A stretch of DNA of 25,849 nt from the IMG/VR virus record IMGVR_UViG_3300028146_000009, positions 1 to 25,849 of that record; one strand, 5' to 3'. The notes beneath the pieces were generated by a model, which saw only the letters and a program-made list of their open reading frames with translations, made no database searches and was not told the origin of the DNA. A program made the translations under genes and the position numbers. Positions 1,194 through 19,590 of this stretch are shown here, piece after piece. The first letter of the stretch is position 1, and each line of letters opens with the position of its first letter. The DNA comes from a virus.

Positions 1194-1571
1194 ATGACAA
1201 AACTTGTGATTTTAAAAATGATAGTATTTTATGCAAATATTTATGGCGTGGACCCAAAATTGGCCGTAAGCGTTGCACAAATTGAATCAGGATTAAATCC
1301 AAATGCAATCAGTTCAACTTCAGATTATGGTGTATTTCAATTGAACTCTAATAGTTTTCCACAATATTCAAAACAAGAATTATTGATCCCTGAAATCAAT
1401 ATTATTGAAGGAATTAATTATCTTGCTAAAATGAAAAAAGAGTGTAAATTTAAAGATAATAATGAATGGTTAGCTTGTTATAATTTAGGAAAAAGAAAAG
1501 CAAGTAAAATTCATTATCCAAAATTGTGGCCTTATACCAAAAAAGTTCTCACCGCGATGAAGGAAATTTAA
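1194..1571 (+). CDS. lytic transglycosylase-like (SLT) muralytic enzyme
   Basis: A 125-residue single-domain protein of the goose-lysozyme/SLT type. Residues 18-50 show the family signature: GVDP...VAQIESGLNPNA with E31 as the expected catalytic acid, followed by SDYGVFQLN. A later AWLACYNLG-like segment (here EWLACYNLG, about residues 88-96) is also typical. Such enzymes cleave the MurNAc-GlcNAc bond of peptidoglycan with anhydro-sugar formation. No signal peptide is evident, so it would need a holin or act in a particle; no holin next to it is certain. GAGG sits 7 bases before ATG 1194. It could be an endolysin or a virion/entry lysin; the context does not decide. Confidence 0.82.
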   Translation: MTKLVILKMIVFYANIYGVDPKLAVSVAQIESGLNPNAISSTSDYGVFQLNSNSFPQYSKQELLIPEINIIEGINYLAKMKKECKFKDNNEWLACYNLGKRKASKIHYPKLWPYTKKVLTAMKEI

Positions 1572-1572
1572 A

Positions 1573-1884
1573 ATGACAACCAGGATAAGATATAAAAAAG
1601 AATTAGATGGAACTTTAGTAACTAAAATATTTAAAACTCCGAATAATGAAGTTCATGGAATAATTGAACCAAATGGTAAAATTTTTATTCAAAGTCTTGA
1701 TGGAAAAATATTTCAGCAATCAGAGGAACATTATACAAATTTACAAAATGCTAAAAAAGTATTAAAAAAAGCGTTAATTTCATTGGGTTGTAATTTTCAA
1801 GAAGAGGTTCGCCCACAAATTAAAGATCACATAAATGAAGCAGCTAAAAAACAATATGAATCTGAAAATATGGGCGATAAATGA
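1573..1884 (+). CDS. hypothetical protein (103 aa)
   Basis: Begins one base after the lysin stop and ends in an ATGA overlap with the lipoprotein gene. The N-terminal half reads as successive beta hairpins (EVHGIIEPNGKIFIQSLDGK). The C-terminal half is helical and lysine-rich. No catalytic motif or membrane segment. No family recognised. Confidence 0.7.
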   Translation: MTTRIRYKKELDGTLVTKIFKTPNNEVHGIIEPNGKIFIQSLDGKIFQQSEEHYTNLQNAKKVLKKALISLGCNFQEEVRPQIKDHINEAAKKQYESENMGDK

Positions 1885-2279
1885 AAAAATTAGCACTTTT
1901 AATATTGCTTTTAATTCCAATCAGTCATTGCGGACCAAATCAAACCACCTTTGATCATGGAACTGTAAACTGTACGACCCAGCAAATAGCTCCTGGAACG
2001 CCGCTAGCGCTCGGTGGCGCGATGATTTCATGTCCAGACGGGACTACAAGCCTAATTTCAAATGGAACGATTATAACACCAATTCAATTTTGTCCGGGAA
2101 GTCCAAATTATCCCAATAGTTTTCCAGAAGTGGGATTTAAATTTGGAACTTCAATCTATGCGGTTTATTCGGCAAATGATGGATTTATGACTTTAATTCC
2201 ACCGGGCCTATATCAATCAAATGCAATAGGATCGAATTGTACATTTACTGTAAATCCAAATGGAACTATAACAAATTAG
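1881..2279 (+). CDS. secreted lipoprotein
   Basis: The N-terminus is a classic lipoprotein signal: MKK, a Leu/Ile-rich core, then ISHC, with Cys17 as the predicted lipidation site. The mature part is Gly/Ser/Thr/Asn-rich, with C30, C51, C71 and C119 available for disulfides. The C-terminal half (ITPIQFCPG, FPEVGF, YAVYSANDGFMTLIPPG, SNCTFTVNPNG) looks like a small beta domain; I recall similar C-terminal domains in proteins from Bdellovibrio-like bacteria and their phages but cannot verify this. A phage lipoprotein of this kind may act in superinfection exclusion or alter the host surface; this is inference. Ends with TAG, evidence that TAG is a true stop in this genome. Confidence 0.8.
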   Translation: MKKLALLILLLIPISHCGPNQTTFDHGTVNCTTQQIAPGTPLALGGAMISCPDGTTSLISNGTIITPIQFCPGSPNYPNSFPEVGFKFGTSIYAVYSANDGFMTLIPPGLYQSNAIGSNCTFTVNPNGTITN

Positions 2280-2288
2280 GAGTAAAAA

Positions 2289-2516
2289 TTGCAGACAATA
2301 GAATTCTTTTATGACGATGTGCAAGGCCGCGAATTAAATATTATCGCAACTATTGATGAAGGTCAAATTCATTTTAAAACTTATTTATTTGATAAAAAGA
2401 TTCCTAATGGAAGTTTAACGACTTTAGATTTCAAAAATATTGAAAATTTCATTCGAAAAAATGCCGAGGATAACATTGAATTTGAAAGCGATTATTTTGA
2501 TCGGCAATCAGATTAA
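2289..2516 (+). CDS. hypothetical protein (75 aa)
   Basis: Starts at TTG 2289. AGGAG at 2278-2282, overlapping the preceding stop, fixes this unusual start. Small acidic protein with an N-terminal beta-rich part (TIEFFYDDVQGRELNIIATI) and an acidic C-terminus. No recognised family. Joined to the next gene by TAATG. Confidence 0.7.
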   Translation: MQTIEFFYDDVQGRELNIIATIDEGQIHFKTYLFDKKIPNGSLTTLDFKNIENFIRKNAEDNIEFESDYFDRQSD

Positions 2517-2788
2517 TGGTAAACTATCGAGATGAAATTTTGGATCACATTACAAAAGAGCGTGACTATTACAGAGAACAAACGCAGGAAATAAGGTTTC
2601 GTCGCAATAAAATGTACAAGGAAAGTTTTACTGATGAATGGCAGGAAATTACCGATGCGTATAGGACTGCACTATTTATGAAAATGTACGATCTTTTAAT
2701 AGATAAATTAACGACTGTTCCATTTGATGAACTTTACATCGAATTAGAATCTTTAGAACTTGATAAAATTTTTGAATTGGATAATTAA
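2516..2788 (+). CDS. hypothetical helical protein (90 aa)
   Basis: ATG 2516 overlaps the previous TAA. Rich in charged residues and aromatics; residues 1-40 (EILDHITKERDYYREQTQEIR...) are probably a long helix or coiled coil, followed by a second helical region. No membrane segment and no known motif. The reverse-strand reading frame over this region is only a shadow. Confidence 0.7.
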   Translation: MVNYRDEILDHITKERDYYREQTQEIRFRRNKMYKESFTDEWQEITDAYRTALFMKMYDLLIDKLTTVPFDELYIELESLELDKIFELDN

Positions 2789-3007
2789 ATGAATTCATTC
2801 TCAATTGCAGATGTAAAGAAGGCTTTAAAACATTTAGAAGATAAATATAAATCTCTTTATGTAAAAATGGAAATAGATGAAAATAACCGATTGAATTTCC
2901 AAATAATGGATACTGAAGCAAATGCAGTAAAGATTGTAATTTACAGATCAAATGAAGAAGGGGAAGCGACGAAGTTTCCCGAGATAGTGGAGTCAAGAAG
3001 ATTATGA
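2789..3007 (+). CDS. hypothetical protein (72 aa)
   Basis: Begins directly after the previous stop (TAAATG) and ends in an ATGA overlap. N-terminal helix (SIADVKKALKHLEDKYKSLY), then beta strands (RLNFQIMDTEANAVKIVIY). No recognised domain. Confidence 0.7.
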   Translation: MNSFSIADVKKALKHLEDKYKSLYVKMEIDENNRLNFQIMDTEANAVKIVIYRSNEEGEATKFPEIVESRRL

Positions 3008-3147
3008 TTATTTTATTAATTGGAATTATTGTGGCTGCGACTTTTTTTAATTCAGCATTTTATGAGTATAGAGTACTAAAAAATACTGATCCTAAAGATA
3101 TCGTAAATGATTGGGTAAATTTGCAATTAAAAAGGAGATATAAGTAA
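3004..3147 (+). CDS. small membrane protein (47 aa)
   Basis: Opens at ATG 3004 in an ATGA overlap and ends at TAA 3145-3147, itself part of TAATG for the next gene. Residues 1-17 (MIILLIGIIVAATFFNS) form one hydrophobic segment, a membrane anchor or signal; the rest is a short charged tail ending LQLKRRYK. The AAGGAG near its end serves the next gene. Unknown function. Confidence 0.65.
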   Translation: MIILLIGIIVAATFFNSAFYEYRVLKNTDPKDIVNDWVNLQLKRRYK

Positions 3148-3269
3148 TGTGTTGGCATAAATGGACAAAATGGTCTAAAACCTATGAATATCCAAATTTA
3201 ATAATTAGATCTTTATGGCAAAAAAGAATTTGTTAAAAATGTGGAAGAGTCCAAGAAAGAATATGTTAA
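3147..3269 (+). pseudogene. mini zinc-ribbon gene with in-frame stop
   Basis: The frame starts at ATG 3147 (TAATG, preceded by AAGGAG) with MCWHKWTKWSK and reads 29 codons to TAA 3234-3236, just after RIC. In the same frame, past that stop, come KCGRVQERIC and a second TAA at 3267-3269. Read through, it would give a short zinc ribbon with C2/H4 and a C-x-x-C pair (C29 and C32), a layout found in many phage mini-proteins and echoed at 17243-17374 here. The second stop overlaps the next probable start (ATGTTAA, 3263-3269), as expected for the ancestral gene end. I infer a Lys-to-stop type change, a sequencing error or readthrough. The 29-residue product alone would lack half its metal site. Confidence 0.55.
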
Positions 3270-3412
3270 AATATTTTATTTATTCAATTTTAATAAATTT
3301 AGTTCTTTTATATTTTTATAGTATTTTGGTATTAAATCCATTAAAAGCCGCGTCAAAAATTGTAGCAAAAAATTGGTGTGAAATGATGAAAGTTGAGTGT
3401 AAATTTAAATGA
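3263..3412 (+). CDS. small membrane protein (49 aa)
   Basis: Residues 1-23 (LKYFIYSILINLVLLYFYS...) are a strongly hydrophobic membrane segment, followed by a short basic tail with two Cys. I choose ATG 3263 because it overlaps the end of the preceding interrupted gene; earlier in-frame ATGs at 3215 and 3239 would add a basic N-terminus. Ribosome site is weak. Ends in ATGA with the next gene. Unknown function. Confidence 0.55.
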   Translation: MLKYFIYSILINLVLLYFYSILVLNPLKAASKIVAKNWCEMMKVECKFK

Positions 3413-3825
3413 GTGAAATAAAATATATTGTAGAGCCAGGACAAAAATTCGGCAATCTTGAGGCCATAATATTTTCTCATTCAAATAAAAGACAGGGAAT
3501 TAGATTTTGGACTTTTAAATGTTATTGCGGAAAAGAATTTACAACAAATTTAACAAGAGTTAGAATTGGAAAAACTAAATCTTGTGGATGCTTAAAAAAA
3601 ACTATTAATAGGGAAAGGCTTCAAATTATACCAGGACAAAAAATTGGCAGGTTAACTTTAATTGACTTTTCCCATCGAGATAATAAAAAACAAAAAATAT
3701 ATAAATGGAAATGCGATTGTGGAAATGAAACTATGGCAAAACTAAGCTGCGTGTATAGAGCGCGAAAAAGAAGCTGCGGGTGTTTAAGAACTGAATATTG
3801 GCAAAAGAATAATAGGATGAAATAA
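3409..3825 (+). CDS. tandem SCGCL zinc-binding protein
   Basis: 138 residues formed by two copies of one domain, about residues 8-63 and 72-126. Each copy has PGQK(F/I)G(N/R)L, a central W-x-(F/W)-KC-x-CG, a basic loop and SCGCL. The four Cys per copy (C-x-CG ... SCGCL) should bind one zinc. In phages this module occurs in small DNA-binding proteins and beside homing endonuclease domains; no nuclease motif is present here, so a DNA-binding or regulatory role is likelier. The copies have diverged, so the duplication is old. ATGA overlap with the gene before. Confidence 0.72.
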   Translation: MSEIKYIVEPGQKFGNLEAIIFSHSNKRQGIRFWTFKCYCGKEFTTNLTRVRIGKTKSCGCLKKTINRERLQIIPGQKIGRLTLIDFSHRDNKKQKIYKWKCDCGNETMAKLSCVYRARKRSCGCLRTEYWQKNNRMK

Positions 3826-3826
3826 A

Positions 3827-4162
3827 GTGCTTATAGAGCCTATATTTGTTCTTTTTTGTAATACAATTGGAACTGAAACTCAAGGTAATGCCCAAATTCC
3901 ATGTCAAAATGCAATTAATGCAACTTCAATTGAAACTAAAACAACACAAACATTTCAGGAATTAGAATCTTACAGTCAAAATTATGTGTATAAAAATATG
4001 GACCCAACTCTAATTAAATCATTAATAGCTGCCGGGTTTTTAGTAAATTCCTATTCTACTAAAACAGTCATAGCACAATTCCCACTTCAACCTTTCGAAT
4101 TTAATTGCCATGTACAGCCAAATAATGTACAATATGGACTCAAACTGAAAATAGATTTTTAA
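3827..4162 (+). CDS. hypothetical, possibly exported protein (111 aa)
   Basis: Starts at GTG 3827 right after the SCGCL gene, with AGGA about 10 bases upstream. The first 12 residues (MLIEPIFVLFCN) are hydrophobic but short for a signal peptide. The rest is Thr/Asn/Gln-rich with C11, C25 and a late Cys, typical of small exported proteins. No family recognised. Confidence 0.55.
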   Translation: MLIEPIFVLFCNTIGTETQGNAQIPCQNAINATSIETKTTQTFQELESYSQNYVYKNMDPTLIKSLIAAGFLVNSYSTKTVIAQFPLQPFEFNCHVQPNNVQYGLKLKIDF

Positions 4163-4183
4163 ACTTATTAAAGGAGATAAAAA

Positions 4184-4447
4184 ATGAAAGTAAAAGTTAA
4201 ATGTGAAGAAATTGAAGGCGAGGGACTTTTAGCACTTTTAGGAAAAAGAGTAACACTTTTTTGTATGAATTATATTTATACGGGAGAACTTGAAGGAGTA
4301 AATGATACTTGTGTAAAACTTCGAGACGCTTATATTGTTTATGAAACTGGAGCATTTACGGATACGAACTGGAAAGATGCCCAAAAACTTTCTAAAGAAT
4401 TTTATGTTCAAACCGCAGCAATTGAAAGTTTTGGCGTTGTAAAATGA
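4184..4447 (+). CDS. hypothetical Sm/SH3-like small protein (87 aa)
   Basis: AAAGGAGAT lies 6 bases before ATG 4184. The sequence LLALLGKRVTLFCMNYIYTGELEGVNDTCVKLRDAYIVYE reads as a run of five or so beta strands, reminiscent of an Sm/SH3-type barrel (GKxVxLxxxNxxYxGxLxGV). This fold similarity is inference. Similar small phage proteins are common and uncharacterised. The gene ends in ATGA with a Gly-Ser microprotein. Confidence 0.7.
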   Translation: MKVKVKCEEIEGEGLLALLGKRVTLFCMNYIYTGELEGVNDTCVKLRDAYIVYETGAFTDTNWKDAQKLSKEFYVQTAAIESFGVVK

Positions 4448-4533
4448 CTAGAGGATTAAAACAAAAATACCGATATGGGTCGGGGTCGGGGTCGCGGTCG
4501 GGGTCGGGGTCGCGGTCGTGGTCGGGGTCGTAA
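4444..4533 (+). CDS. Gly-Ser repeat microprotein (29 aa)
   Basis: ATG 4444 overlaps the previous stop (ATGA). The frame reads MTRGLKQKYRY and then 18 residues of alternating Ser with Gly, Arg or Trp, ending at TAA 4531-4533. The second half is encoded by the GC-rich hexamer repeat. The ATGA coupling and the in-phase stop right after the repeat argue for a real gene. A basic head with a Ser/Gly/Arg tail could bind nucleic acid or be a disordered linker; function unknown. Confidence 0.5.
   Translation: MTRGLKQKYRYGSGSGSRSGSGSRSWSGS
4476..4530 (+). repeat. GGGGTC hexamer tandem repeat
   Basis: About nine hexamers of GGGTCG, with CGG and TGG variants in place of GGG at intervals, in otherwise AT-rich DNA. 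Each hexamer is two codons (Gly-Ser, Arg-Ser or Trp-Ser), so length change keeps frame. The G-run spacing is regular, so G-quadruplex formation by the + strand is conceivable. Confidence 0.9.
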
Positions 4534-11354: not shown

Positions 11355-11361
11355 AAATATG

Positions 11362-11390
11362 AAGTAAGGACTCCTCCTTCCCACTTACTT
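11362..11390 (+). other. hairpin, 7-bp perfect inverted repeat
   Basis: AAGTAAG (11362-11368) pairs fully with CTTACTT (11384-11390) around a 15-base loop that contains CTCCTCC, a pyrimidine run resembling an anti-Shine-Dalgarno. It lies between the stop of the upstream gene and the terminator. Role unknown; it may protect the 3' end or be part of the larger structure. Confidence 0.6.
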
Positions 11391-11395
11391 TGTAG

Positions 11396-11448
11396 CCCCG
11401 TTAAAAGTCACCGCTTCTAGCTTTGAACTTTCTTCGGGGTATTTTTTT
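11396..11448 (+). terminator. intrinsic terminator
   Basis: CCCCG (11396-11400) pairs with CGGGG (11435-11439). After a symmetric 3x3 internal loop, AAAGT (11404-11408) pairs with ACTTT (11427-11431). Seven T residues follow at 11442-11448. This long stem with a T-run is a convincing rho-independent terminator and would end transcripts from the left genes, so the primase-helicase unit should have its own start or depend on antitermination. Confidence 0.75.
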
Positions 11449-11453
11449 AAGCT

Positions 11454-11577
11454 AAGCCAGAACCCTGATGCATTGCTATGGGTTTAAAGTAGGGCCATAA
11501 GGACTTGATGTTTTAATAAGGTGTCATGGCGTGTGGCTAGGACTAAACCACTACTTATTAATTCGTGCTGGCTTTTT
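11454..11577 (+). ncRNA. candidate structured RNA / leader of replication operon
   Basis: A closing stem pairs AAGCCAG (11454-11460) with CTGGCTT (11568-11574). Inside are three local hairpins: AACCC/GGGTT (11461-11465 with 11480-11484), AAGT/ACTT (11487-11490 with 11503-11506), and TTAATAAG/CTTATTAA (11513-11520 with 11554-11561) with further GTG/CAC and GTGG/CCAC pairing in its loop. The closing stem runs into five T residues (11573-11577), then AAGGA and ATG 11592 of the primase-helicase. No long coding frame is present. It does not match tRNA or any riboswitch I can recognise. A stable RNA, cis-regulatory leader, or replication origin are all possible. Confidence 0.5.
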
Positions 11578-11591
11578 AACTTTAAGGAACA

Positions 11592-13523
11592 ATGATGCAA
11601 ATGGCAAATGAAAAATACATCAGATTAGCTAAAAATTTTACAGATCGAGGAATTCTAATTACACCAGATAAAATCAAAGATCACGTAAAGAATCCAGAAA
11701 TTCCACATTACATCTCTCCATATTATTATAATCAAGAACATTTTAATAAATTCAAAGAAACTGGAAGTGTTGCCGGTTTTGAGAATCTTTTTACCGATAA
11801 AATTTGGTGGGACTTTGACTCCAAAGAAAAACTCACTTTTGCTAAAAATGATACTTTAACTTTAATTGAAAGACTTTCCAAACATGTTGATCAAAATAAA
11901 ATTGAAATATTTTTTTCTGGATCAAAAGGATTTCATGTTGTTTTAAACTTAAATCGTGAATTAAATCAAAAACAAGTTAAAAAAGTTGCAATGGATTTCG
12001 CTAAAGATCTCAAAACTTTTGATACTGTAGTTTATAACGAAAATCGCTATCTAAGACTCGTTGGAACGAAACATCAAGAAACTGATTTCTATAAAATCCC
12101 ATTAACATTTGATGAACTAAAAAATCTAAAAAAACCTAGTGATCTTTATGAAAAGGCCAAATCGCCCGCAAAAGACTACAAATCACTTGAAAAAGTAGAA
12201 ATGGATGATTCCTGGTTTGAAATTAAAGAAGTTGAAGCTGAAATTAAATCTCAATCTTTATCAATGGATTTCGATCTTTCCACAAAACCAAGGAATTGGA
12301 AAGCTTCAAAATGGGCATTGATGCAAGGATTTTTCAAAGGCGGTGAAAGAGATAATTCCATGATGGTTTTGTCCGCGACTTTAAAAGCAATGGGCTACGA
12401 TGAAACTCAAACTTATAGTCTTTGTAAAGATGCACTTAAAAAGTCTTGGAAACGCTATGGAGAAGGTGAATTTTCAAAAGAAGATCTATGGAATATTATA
12501 GAGCGCACTTTTTCTAAAAAAGATCTGGGTCAATATTCTGAAAAAACTGACATGTTTCTTCAAAAGAAAGCAGAAGAACTGGGAATTAAAGAACTTACAA
12601 CTTCTGAAATTGTAGACATAAAAGGAGCTTTAAGAATCTATAAAGATTATGCCAAAAATATTTCAAAACTTACTTTAAGAACCGGCATTAAAGAGTTAGA
12701 TGAAAAGCAAAGAATAACTGTTGGAATGGCTTTTGGAATTGTGGCTGCCCCAGGAAGCGGAAAAACCACACTAGCCCTCACAATGCTCCATTCAATGTCT
12801 AAAGAAGGAGAACTTTGTATATTTTTCTCCTACGATATGTATGCACCATTAATTGTCCAAAAAATTATACAGAAGCACTGGAAAGGTAAAGAAAATATTA
12901 ATGAAGTCTTTAAAAAATACGAAGCAAATGATCAAGAATTTGTAGACAAGGTCGAGGCCTTGATAACTTCAGAATATCCTAATGTAAAATTTTGTTTTGA
13001 AACAGGTCAAAGTATTGAAGATATTTATATTGCAATTAGAAATGCAGAACAAACTTATGGAAAGAAATGTAAATTTGTCGTAATTGATTATAATGAACTT
13101 GTGATTTCAGATGTGGCCGATCCAACTCAAGGGTCAAATAAAACTGCGCAACAAGTAAGAGCTATGGCCCAAAAAGAACAACTTTGCGTCCTAAGTCTTT
13201 TCCAACCTTCAAAGGTCACAGGAGATCCTTCCTCTGAAATTATGTCTTATCGCGCAGCAAAAGGTGGCAGTGGAATTGAACAAAGCCTCCGTTTAATGCT
13301 TGGAGTTTCAAGGCCTGGATATGATCCAAATGATCCGGACAATGATAAATTCTTAAATCTTAAAGTATTAAAAAACAATATGGGTCAAATTTTTGCCGTA
13401 GATCTTCATTGGGATGGTTACAAAGGGGAAATTAGATCTTTAACTCCAAGTGAAAAAGTTGAACTTGGAACTTTAAGACAAGCAAAAAAAGATGAAAAGG
13501 CTGGGAATGATGAACCGTGGTAA
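11592..13523 (+). CDS. AEP-type primase fused to DnaB-like helicase
   Basis: A 643-residue fusion. Residues 70-165 carry the motifs of the archaeo-eukaryotic primase superfamily: DFD (D74, D76), FFSGSKGFHV (H115), and FDTVVYNENRYLRLVGTKH (D144, R152/R155). Residues 235-310 look like a helical primase C-terminal linker (PriCT-like). Residues 360-620 are a RecA-fold helicase: Walker A APGSGKTT near 386-393, Walker B FVVIDY with D499, a Q538 sensor in LSLFQPS, and IEQSLRLML. Synthesis of primers coupled to duplex unwinding at the fork is expected. AAGGA is placed for ATG 11592, first gene after the terminator and structured RNA. T7 gp4 has the same role but with an unrelated TOPRIM primase. Confidence 0.8.
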   Translation: MMQMANEKYIRLAKNFTDRGILITPDKIKDHVKNPEIPHYISPYYYNQEHFNKFKETGSVAGFENLFTDKIWWDFDSKEKLTFAKNDTLTLIERLSKHVDQNKIEIFFSGSKGFHVVLNLNRELNQKQVKKVAMDFAKDLKTFDTVVYNENRYLRLVGTKHQETDFYKIPLTFDELKNLKKPSDLYEKAKSPAKDYKSLEKVEMDDSWFEIKEVEAEIKSQSLSMDFDLSTKPRNWKASKWALMQGFFKGGERDNSMMVLSATLKAMGYDETQTYSLCKDALKKSWKRYGEGEFSKEDLWNIIERTFSKKDLGQYSEKTDMFLQKKAEELGIKELTTSEIVDIKGALRIYKDYAKNISKLTLRTGIKELDEKQRITVGMAFGIVAAPGSGKTTLALTMLHSMSKEGELCIFFSYDMYAPLIVQKIIQKHWKGKENINEVFKKYEANDQEFVDKVEALITSEYPNVKFCFETGQSIEDIYIAIRNAEQTYGKKCKFVVIDYNELVISDVADPTQGSNKTAQQVRAMAQKEQLCVLSLFQPSKVTGDPSSEIMSYRAAKGGSGIEQSLRLMLGVSRPGYDPNDPDNDKFLNLKVLKNNMGQIFAVDLHWDGYKGEIRSLTPSEKVELGTLRQAKKDEKAGNDEPW

Positions 13524-16191: not shown

Positions 16192-16321
16192 TGTATATAT
16201 TACTTACAATAAAAAATATAATCCTACTAAATGGACTATTAATTCCTATAAAGAAGTTTTACAACAAATATTAAATTTAAATAGATATCCAGTAAAATCA
16301 ATAAAAATTGTTAAAAAATGA
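16184..16321 (+). CDS. small protein inserted between polymerase halves (45 aa)
   Basis: ATG 16184 overlaps the end of the polymerase N-part by 8 bases; its TGA 16319-16321 overlaps the ATG of the C-part (ATGA). The product (MYNVYITYNKKYNPTKW ... VKSIKIVKK) is small, basic and aromatic, with no homing endonuclease motif. At about 126 intervening bases the interruption is too short for a known self-splicing intron. It may be a relic of a mobile gene that split the polymerase, or a real linker/assembly protein. Confidence 0.6.
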   Translation: MYNVYITYNKKYNPTKWTINSYKEVLQQILNLNRYPVKSIKIVKK

Positions 16322-17237: not shown

Positions 17238-17242
17238 TAAAA

Positions 17243-17374
17243 ATTGCAAAACATGATTGGATTTGTAAAGTTCCACCATTTAAATTTCCTAGAAAATGTG
17301 TAAAATGTGGTCTAAGAGAATTAGCAACTGAAGAAAATGAATTAGAACTTGCTGAAGGTTATGATGAAATATGA
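17243..17374 (+). CDS. mini zinc-ribbon protein with non-standard start (43 aa)
   Basis: The frame is open from 17228 to TGA 17372-17374 and contains KHDWICKVPP then RKCVKCGLRE, giving H4, C8, C19, C22, a typical phage mini zinc ribbon. No ATG, GTG or TTG is available in frame; GGAG at 17229-17232 stands before ATT 17243 (10 bases) and ATA 17237. I favour ATT, as in infC. The next gene's ribosome site and start lie inside its end. The alternative is translation by frameshift from the gene upstream, or a decayed gene. Confidence 0.5.
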   Translation: MAKHDWICKVPPFKFPRKCVKCGLRELATEENELELAEGYDEI

Positions 17375-18440: not shown

Positions 18441-18613
18441 ATAAAATAACTGACCATAATTGTGCTTGGAAAAGTCAAGAAAAATATAATGATATATTTA
18501 ATAAACAATTTTATAAAATAAATACTTATATGTGTGATTTTTTTAAAAAACAAAAAACATATGATTCTCAGGTATATAAATATCCATTTAAAACTTTTAA
18601 AAAGGACGTCTAA
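18437..18613 (+). CDS. hypothetical small protein (58 aa)
   Basis: ATGA overlap with the ligase and TAATG with the ATPase. Basic and aromatic (Phe/Tyr/Lys-rich), with two Cys (C9, C33) and His-Asn-Cys-Ala-Trp near the start. No family recognised; its exact fit between two genes supports it. Confidence 0.6.
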   Translation: MNKITDHNCAWKSQEKYNDIFNKQFYKINTYMCDFFKKQKTYDSQVYKYPFKTFKKDV

Positions 18614-19590
18614 TGGCCGAACATTTTAAAGTGAAATTAATAACTGATTTATCAAAAATTGATAAAACTTTCACATTTCCAACTTCAGATTTCGCGACTT
18701 TAACTCCCGATGGAAAATTTATTCAACTGGAATATGTTGAAGAAGATACAAAAGTTGAACCCTATAAAGTTCGACCGGGGATCTGGGCTATTCAAAAAAC
18801 AATGCAAGGTCTCAAGCTTTTTGAAACCTCTTTCATTGAAGATAAAGTTTTAGAAGAATTCGCACAAACTAAAGATGTGCTGGATAAAATTGACTGCTTT
18901 TTTAATCGATTGCATATTTATAAAAAACGAAATATTGAAGTTCCCATCCGCCGCATGTTACTATATGGCCCCGCAGGGACTGGAAAAACAACCATACTTT
19001 CAGTTTCATCTCGAAAATATGTAAAAGATAATGAAACTGCTGTAATTCTCTGGCATACTGATAAATTTGAATCCTACCAAGTAAAGGATTTTATTAAAGC
19101 TTTTGATTATACGGAAGTTAAGAAACTTATTTTAATTGTGGAAGATATTGGAGGGGTTGAGCAAAAAGAAGTAAACAGACCTTCAGATTCAAGCCTTCTT
19201 TCCCTTTTAGACAATCAAGAAAAGACCTTTAAAATCCCCACAATGATTATTGCGACCACAAATCATCCTGAAACGTTCCTAGGGAACCTTATGAATAGGC
19301 CTGGAAGGTTCTCAGACAAGATTGAGGTCACTTTTCCGGGGTCCAAGGCACGTCAAGCCCTTTTAGCATTTTTCGCGCAAGGTGAGACCATTACGGACGA
19401 ATTAAACACTCTTATTGGATCTGAGAAATGTAAGGAATTCACAGTAGATCATTTAAAGGAAATATTCCTACGATCTGATCTTTATGGGAGAACCCCCCTA
19501 GAAGTAACCCATGAATTATTAGCTGAAATTAAAAAGTATGAAAATGCATTCTCAGGAAAAAATACTCGTATGGGATTTGCAATTGATTAA
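18613..19590 (+). CDS. AAA+ ATPase
   Basis: 325 residues. An N-terminal domain of about 110 residues is followed by an AAA+ core: Walker A GPAGTGKT (119-126), Walker B LILIVEDIGG (172-181), sensor 1 ATTNHPE (N217), and NRPGRFSDKIEV with the arginine-finger region. The NRPGRFD-type ending resembles FtsH/BCS1-like classical AAA proteins rather than clamp-loader subunits. A C-terminal helical lid follows. It probably remodels a protein or nucleoprotein complex; substrate unknown. Starts at ATG 18613 (TAATG). Confidence 0.82.
   Translation: MAEHFKVKLITDLSKIDKTFTFPTSDFATLTPDGKFIQLEYVEEDTKVEPYKVRPGIWAIQKTMQGLKLFETSFIEDKVLEEFAQTKDVLDKIDCFFNRLHIYKKRNIEVPIRRMLLYGPAGTGKTTILSVSSRKYVKDNETAVILWHTDKFESYQVKDFIKAFDYTEVKKLILIVEDIGGVEQKEVNRPSDSSLLSLLDNQEKTFKIPTMIIATTNHPETFLGNLMNRPGRFSDKIEVTFPGSKARQALLAFFAQGETITDELNTLIGSEKCKEFTVDHLKEIFLRSDLYGRTPLEVTHELLAEIKKYENAFSGKNTRMGFAID

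Follow-up and report, generated by a model that had tools for sequence, protein, structure and literature searches.

The 237-nt gap upstream of the primase-helicase gene analyzed here appears, on balance, to be a transcription boundary that accommodates a rapidly changing slot for structured RNAs. By computation, this gap lacks coding capacity, contains an intrinsic terminator and occupies a conserved slot which, in relatives of the phage, harbors genuine structured RNAs; one of these RNAs, denoted R1, is a firm new element that lies outside the window (the complete analyzed stretch of 25,849 nt). Transcripts of the upstream early genes would stop at 11448, where the terminator ends, just behind a hairpin with a pyrimidine-rich loop, and 11449-11591 would be the untranslated leader of the primase-helicase mRNA. 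This leader most probably adopts a lineage-specific RNA structure, with 11454-11574 as the putative structured part, and might act in cis on the primase-helicase gene, through terminator read-through or access to the ribosome site; alternatively, it could be released as a stable small RNA.

A non-coding gap with elevated GC content

The window covers positions 1-25,849 of an IMG/VR virus record of 89,917 nt. The record represents a tailed phage, the genes of which include those for terminase, tail and baseplate-like proteins as well as a nicotinamide phosphoribosyl transferase. The gap (11355-11591) contains no plus-strand open reading frame (ORF) of at least 30 aa, and the minus strand has just one, a TTG frame of 38 aa; accordingly, the claim of an earlier, sequence-only reading that 237 non-coding bases precede the primase-helicase gene is borne out by the ORF scan. 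The same reading described this as the only real intergenic gap, which is nearly right, although 3008-3214 and 16192-16317 are also free of ORFs of at least 50 aa (ORFs of 27-47 aa are present in both), and 17238-17348 is likewise largely bare. The GC content of the gap is 0.41 compared to 0.33 for the record, that is, about 8 points higher, and is similarly raised in the relatives with a filled slot; about 4% of the 237-nt windows across the 26-kb stretch match this value.

The gap is flanked by a small upstream gene and the primase-helicase gene (Table 1). The small gene has no match in Pfam or PHROGs, and its AlphaFold model is beta-rich but of low confidence (pLDDT 67), without a significant fold match, so that its identification as a single-stranded DNA-binding protein (SSB) was rejected. 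For the primase-helicase, the ATG at 11595 is the likelier start because the homologs in the relatives begin at MQM.

Table 1. Features of the gap and its surroundings in the window, and R1 loci in related phages
Feature	Coordinates	Strand	Remarks
Upstream small gene, 83 aa	11103-11354	+	similar small gene at the same position in relatives
Hairpin, 11-bp stem (7-bp Watson-Crick core)	11358-11394	+	pyrimidine-rich loop GACTCCTCCTTCCCA; begins 4 nt past the stop codon
Intrinsic (Rho-independent) terminator	11395-11448	+	outer stem GCCCCG (11395-11400)/CGGGGT (11435-11440), inner stems, T7 tail
Candidate multi-branched RNA	11454-11574	+	closing stem AAGCCAG/CTGGCTT (11454-11460/11568-11574); hairpins AACCC/GGGTT, AAGT/ACTT and TTAATAAG/CTTATTAA (11513-11520/11554-11561); then T5 (11573-11577)
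GCCAT, second hairpin loop	11494-11498	+	possible kiss with ATGGC 11526-11530; speculative
ATGGC, third hairpin loop	11526-11530	+	possible partner of 11494-11498; speculative
Shine-Dalgarno AAGGA of primase-helicase	11584-11588	+	TTTTTAAC just before
Primase-helicase	11592-13523	+	primase-small-subunit-like domain and DnaB-like helicase; likely start 11595
R1 loci	L081:3580-3740, L082:3572-3736, L083:3248-3415, L084:2651-2818, L085:3245-3418, L089:3248-3415		

The terminator and a recurrent hairpin

The identification of 11395-11448 as an intrinsic terminator of the ordinary kind is well supported. The segment 11394-11448 has a minimum free energy of -17.7 (z-score of -4.34, with none of 300 dinucleotide shuffles folding as well), and the stem is followed by a single A and then seven T (11442-11448). 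Thus, the two-stage terminator with a T7 run that had been proposed at 11396-11448 is upheld by the folding energy, and terminators are also present in the same gap in four relatives (L081, L082, L086 and L088). It resembles the intrinsic terminators found between phage operons in combining a GC-rich stem with T7, and differs from the typical case in its long two-stage stem with internal loops; a simple terminator scan that allows loops of 3-8 nt misses it.

The terminator is preceded by the hairpin originally described as a 7-bp stem at 11362-11390, the arms of which (AAGTAAG/CTTACTT) are indeed found at 11362-11368 and 11384-11390; G-T pairs lengthen the stem to 11 bp, enclosing the loop GACUCCUCCUUCCCA. 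The pyrimidine-rich loop drew no comment in the sequence-only reading but is recurrent: similar hairpins occur in the syntenic gaps of L002, L072, L086 and L088, so that, together with the terminator, this is one of two recurrent features of the slot. The importance of this hairpin is no more than a suggestion: the loop was spotted post hoc, and comparable hairpins, usually shorter in the stem, are found at other places in these genomes. Sequestration of the ribosome site by the loop is not claimed: the complementarity amounts to 5-6 nt in the window phage, L002 and L072, no more than expected of any pyrimidine tract, and inspection by eye of L086 and L088 revealed none.

Contents of the slot in related phages

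Relatives at graded distances were gathered by searches with the primase-helicase; a search of genome contigs yielded no relatives. The primase-helicases of L065, L072 and L002 are, respectively, 61%, 57% and 47% identical to that of the window phage, whereas those of the clade of L081, L082, L083 and L085 show 34-37% identity to it and 78-88% among themselves; L086 is 65-67% identical to the members of this clade. Bounded by a similar small gene on one side and the primase-helicase gene on the other, the slot is non-coding in the window phage, L065, L072, L002, L081, L082 and L086. The syntenic gaps span 87 nt in L065, 95 nt in L002, 115 nt in L088, 157-179 nt in L086, 247 nt in L081, 256 nt in L082 and 299 nt in L072, compared to 237 nt in the window, and the window gap has no alignable sequence in any of them, including the nearest relatives (47-61% identity). 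The sole sequence common to the gaps of the window, L065 and L002 is TTTAAC (in the window, within 11575-11591), located at a similar distance from the primase-helicase ribosome site in all three.

The contents of the slot are diverse. L086 carries a tRNA-Asn gene (3640-3714) followed by the pyrimidine-loop hairpin and a 12-bp terminator. In L072, a 173-nt multi-branched RNA (4238-4410; z-score of -4.06, 7-bp closing stem) precedes the pyrimidine-loop hairpin and includes two T-arm-like hairpins, GTGAG-TGCAAAT-CTCAC and ATCG-TTCGAGT-CGAT; neither ARAGORN nor Rfam detects a tRNA in it. The slot holds the pyrimidine-loop hairpin and a terminator in L088, a 15-bp hairpin with a pyrimidine-rich loop in L002, and a C-terminal fragment of endonuclease VII in L067 (1258-1455). 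The L067 primase-helicase (1445-4456) itself contains an intein-like insert at the Walker A motif, with Hom_end_hint and LAGLIDADG domains.

R1 occupies the same syntenic slot in six records, with five distinct sequences (L083 and L084 are identical across R1). Its core has the form GUGWCACCUACC - P1 - GUAA - P2 - UGAGARUGGUGWGUUC - P3. The loops of P1 and P2 are complementary and would kiss (GAUCAAA with UUUGAUC in L083, UGAUGG with CCAUCA in L081; the contact is weaker in L082), and a later hairpin loop forms a second pseudoknot with the 3'-end strand (GGCGGC/GCCGCC in L083 and L085, GUGGA/UCCAC in L082, and GUAGA/UCUAC in L081, where the automatic alignment shifts it by one). In the R1 alignment (A8), 20 of the 43 pairs, with the two pseudoknots included, are changed on both sides and 90.6% of the cells pair, values that none of 500 shuffles reach. 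When the partners are slid by 1-3 columns, the paired cells drop to 36-48% and the double-sided changes to 2-9, a control that is partly favored since the structure was drawn from the same sequences. Within a sample of five distinct sequences, two of them near-identical (96%), the structure is strongly supported by the shuffle control and by compensatory changes distributed across all nine helices. Comparison of R1 with Rfam 15 gave no match at the gathering score; L085 had none even at an E-value of 1, and the sole match of L082 was a snoRNA attributed to chance. R1 is apparently an undescribed family of structured RNAs. GOLLD and ROOL are much larger than R1 or the window candidate. As phage-linked structured RNAs, they nevertheless share kissing loops with R1, and neither R1 nor the window has an Rfam match. 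The ornate architecture of GOLLD and ROOL, with their kissing loops, and their link to phages have been described (PMC12286853).

The arrangement around R1 varies. In L081 and L082, a terminator comes after R1, with the primase-helicase ribosome site immediately behind it; in L083/L084, L085 and L089, R1 spans about 170 nt and an extra gene intervenes ahead of the primase-helicase, with the last pseudoknot strand ending shortly before a ribosome site in L083, L085 and L089. The window gap, like R1, lies between the small upstream gene and the primase-helicase gene but is outside the R1 family: run with filters off, the R1 covariance model scores it at 3.1 bits, compared to 122-186 bits for the members. 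A match to the model at 18877-18956 of the window (22 bits, E-value of 0.0002) falls within a coding gene (ORF 18613-19590), leaves out most of the model and was dismissed as chance. R1 and the window candidate share the syntenic slot, the GC enrichment, the serial hairpins and a possible loop-loop contact, and differ in topology and in the order relative to the terminator, the window being devoid of any R1 sequence. Whatever holds for the window, R1 is by its looks a new family with direct covariation support, and offers a concrete model to search with and to probe.

The segment between the terminator and the primase-helicase gene

All the arms of the multi-branched set noted downstream of the terminator exist, but the set folds no better than shuffled sequences (11454-11574: minimum free energy of -32.6, z-score of -0.84 on the plus strand and -2.2 on the minus strand), and neither does the gap as a whole (z-score of about -1.0). 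The energy does not settle the question, and the weak z-score is not enough to refute an RNA, because z-scores between -0.9 and -1.6 are seen in four of the five gaps that carry R1. The GC content of the segment is 0.41 compared to 0.33 for the next gene; the speculative GCCAT/ATGGC loop contact is equalled by 7% of shuffled loop pairs. No homolog of 11454-11574 usable for covariation was found, the nearest relatives being those with 47-61% primase-helicase identity. Structured-RNA content, as originally envisaged for the gap, thus finds support in the slots of the relatives, with R1, the tRNA-Asn and the L072 RNA, but not in the window's own segment, with its z-score of -0.84 and no alignable homolog. 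By position, GC content and analogy, the downstream RNA of the window is a plausible candidate, with about an even chance of being real.

Searches against known RNAs agree with the initial impression that no known riboswitch or tRNA is present: the gap has no Rfam match at the gathering score (riboswitches, ribozymes, introns, 6S RNA and tmRNA included) and yields chance matches alone on a short stretch even at an E-value of 10, ARAGORN predicts no tRNAs in the window or the whole record, and the group I intron model has no match in the four genomes searched. A blastn search of the gap against phages and four genomes returned either nothing or matches of 19-34 nt that were judged to be chance, as were 50 scattered matches in IMG/VR to an exact DNA pattern around TAAGGACTTGATG. 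A boxA-like sequence of L065, TCTTTAAC, is, by eye, too weak in the window.

The preferred reading, in which a transcription boundary carries a rapidly changing RNA slot, draws on the terminator (z-score of -4.3, T7) and its recurrence in four relatives, the conservation of the slot, R1, the L072 RNA, the tRNA-Asn and the raised GC content. Against it count the unexceptional energy of the multi-branched fold, the absence of Rfam matches and of similarity to the gaps of relatives, and the gaps of just 87-95 nt in L065 (61% identity) and L002 (47%), which imply that the group can do without the segment. A search for a sigma-70-like promoter between the terminator and the primase-helicase gene gave none, so that the leader would have to be transcribed by read-through or from a non-sigma-70 promoter.

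The same short gaps, in which 87-95 nt suffice, also fit a different and rather less probable account, namely, that only the hairpin and the terminator matter and that 11449-11591 is an unstructured leader, or a decaying one, remaining after turnover of the slot, such as the loss of a tRNA, an RNA gene or a mobile endonuclease. The shuffle-like fold, the lack of similarity to any relative and the endonuclease VII fragment in L067 are compatible with decay; the GC content, however, is raised across the entire segment, and 143 bare nucleotides would have been kept in a compact genome.

A specific form of the preferred reading, which we consider unlikely, is a put-like or attenuator-type RNA acting in cis on the RNA polymerase, the terminator or the primase-helicase ribosome site. 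The put RNA of phage HK022, which suppresses termination on its own, is a known precedent (PMC9378689); the shared traits are a structured phage RNA before early genes and a possible link to termination. The position of R1 ahead of the terminator and ribosome site in L081 and L082, and the last pseudoknot strand lying a short way ahead of a ribosome site in L083, L085 and L089, would suit such a role. In the window, by contrast, the terminator comes first and the candidate RNA second, a poor fit to an RNA that is needed before the terminator it suppresses; moreover, the next gene varies among the R1 carriers, and a stable RNA gene fits equally well. A bolder proposition, that the slot must hold some structured RNA, with lineages filling it with unrelated RNAs (R1, the L072 RNA, a tRNA and the RNA of the window), and that the three-hairpin kissing RNA of the window is a new class controlling replication-gene expression, is doubtful; if the slot does have to hold a structured RNA, this would suggest that the switch to phage replication involves an RNA step.

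The proposal that the gap is a replication origin with iterons is highly improbable. The gap adjoins the primase-helicase gene, and the three WAGGACT copies (W is A or T) taken for iterons do exist, at 11366, 11499 and 11538; none of 5000 gap shuffles contains three, for a motif that was chosen post hoc, and 748 of 2000 gap shuffles contain some 6-mer three times. The copies, however, are irregularly spaced (133 and 39 nt), one of them overlaps an arm of the hairpin, the motif is common record-wide (26 copies across both strands of the 90-kb record), and the gaps of the relatives contain no counterpart. Furthermore, the cumulative skew climbs steadily across the gap, with no turn, and the gap, being GC-rich, includes no AT-rich unwinding stretch; the origin candidate is therefore not supported.

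Several other features of the record were observed. Tandem 24-nt repeats encoding NSSV-type octapeptides are found at both ends (9 copies at 1-228 of the window and 15 copies at 89549-89917) and probably represent a single array cut in two where the contig ends, the genome being circular or terminally repetitive. A GC-rich 6-nt repeat, GGGTCG, is located at 4477-4530 of the window, between genes or at gene starts of this AT-rich genome. The gap between divergent genes at 81909-82178 (G000) contains a TTGACA-type promoter-like site and has a moderate fold (z-scores of -1.8/-2.7), and the gap at 67338-67509 (G000) has a z-score of -5.6 against shuffles and contains a strong terminator-like hairpin, AAAAAAGCGCCTAGATTAATAGGCGCGTGTTTTTTT.
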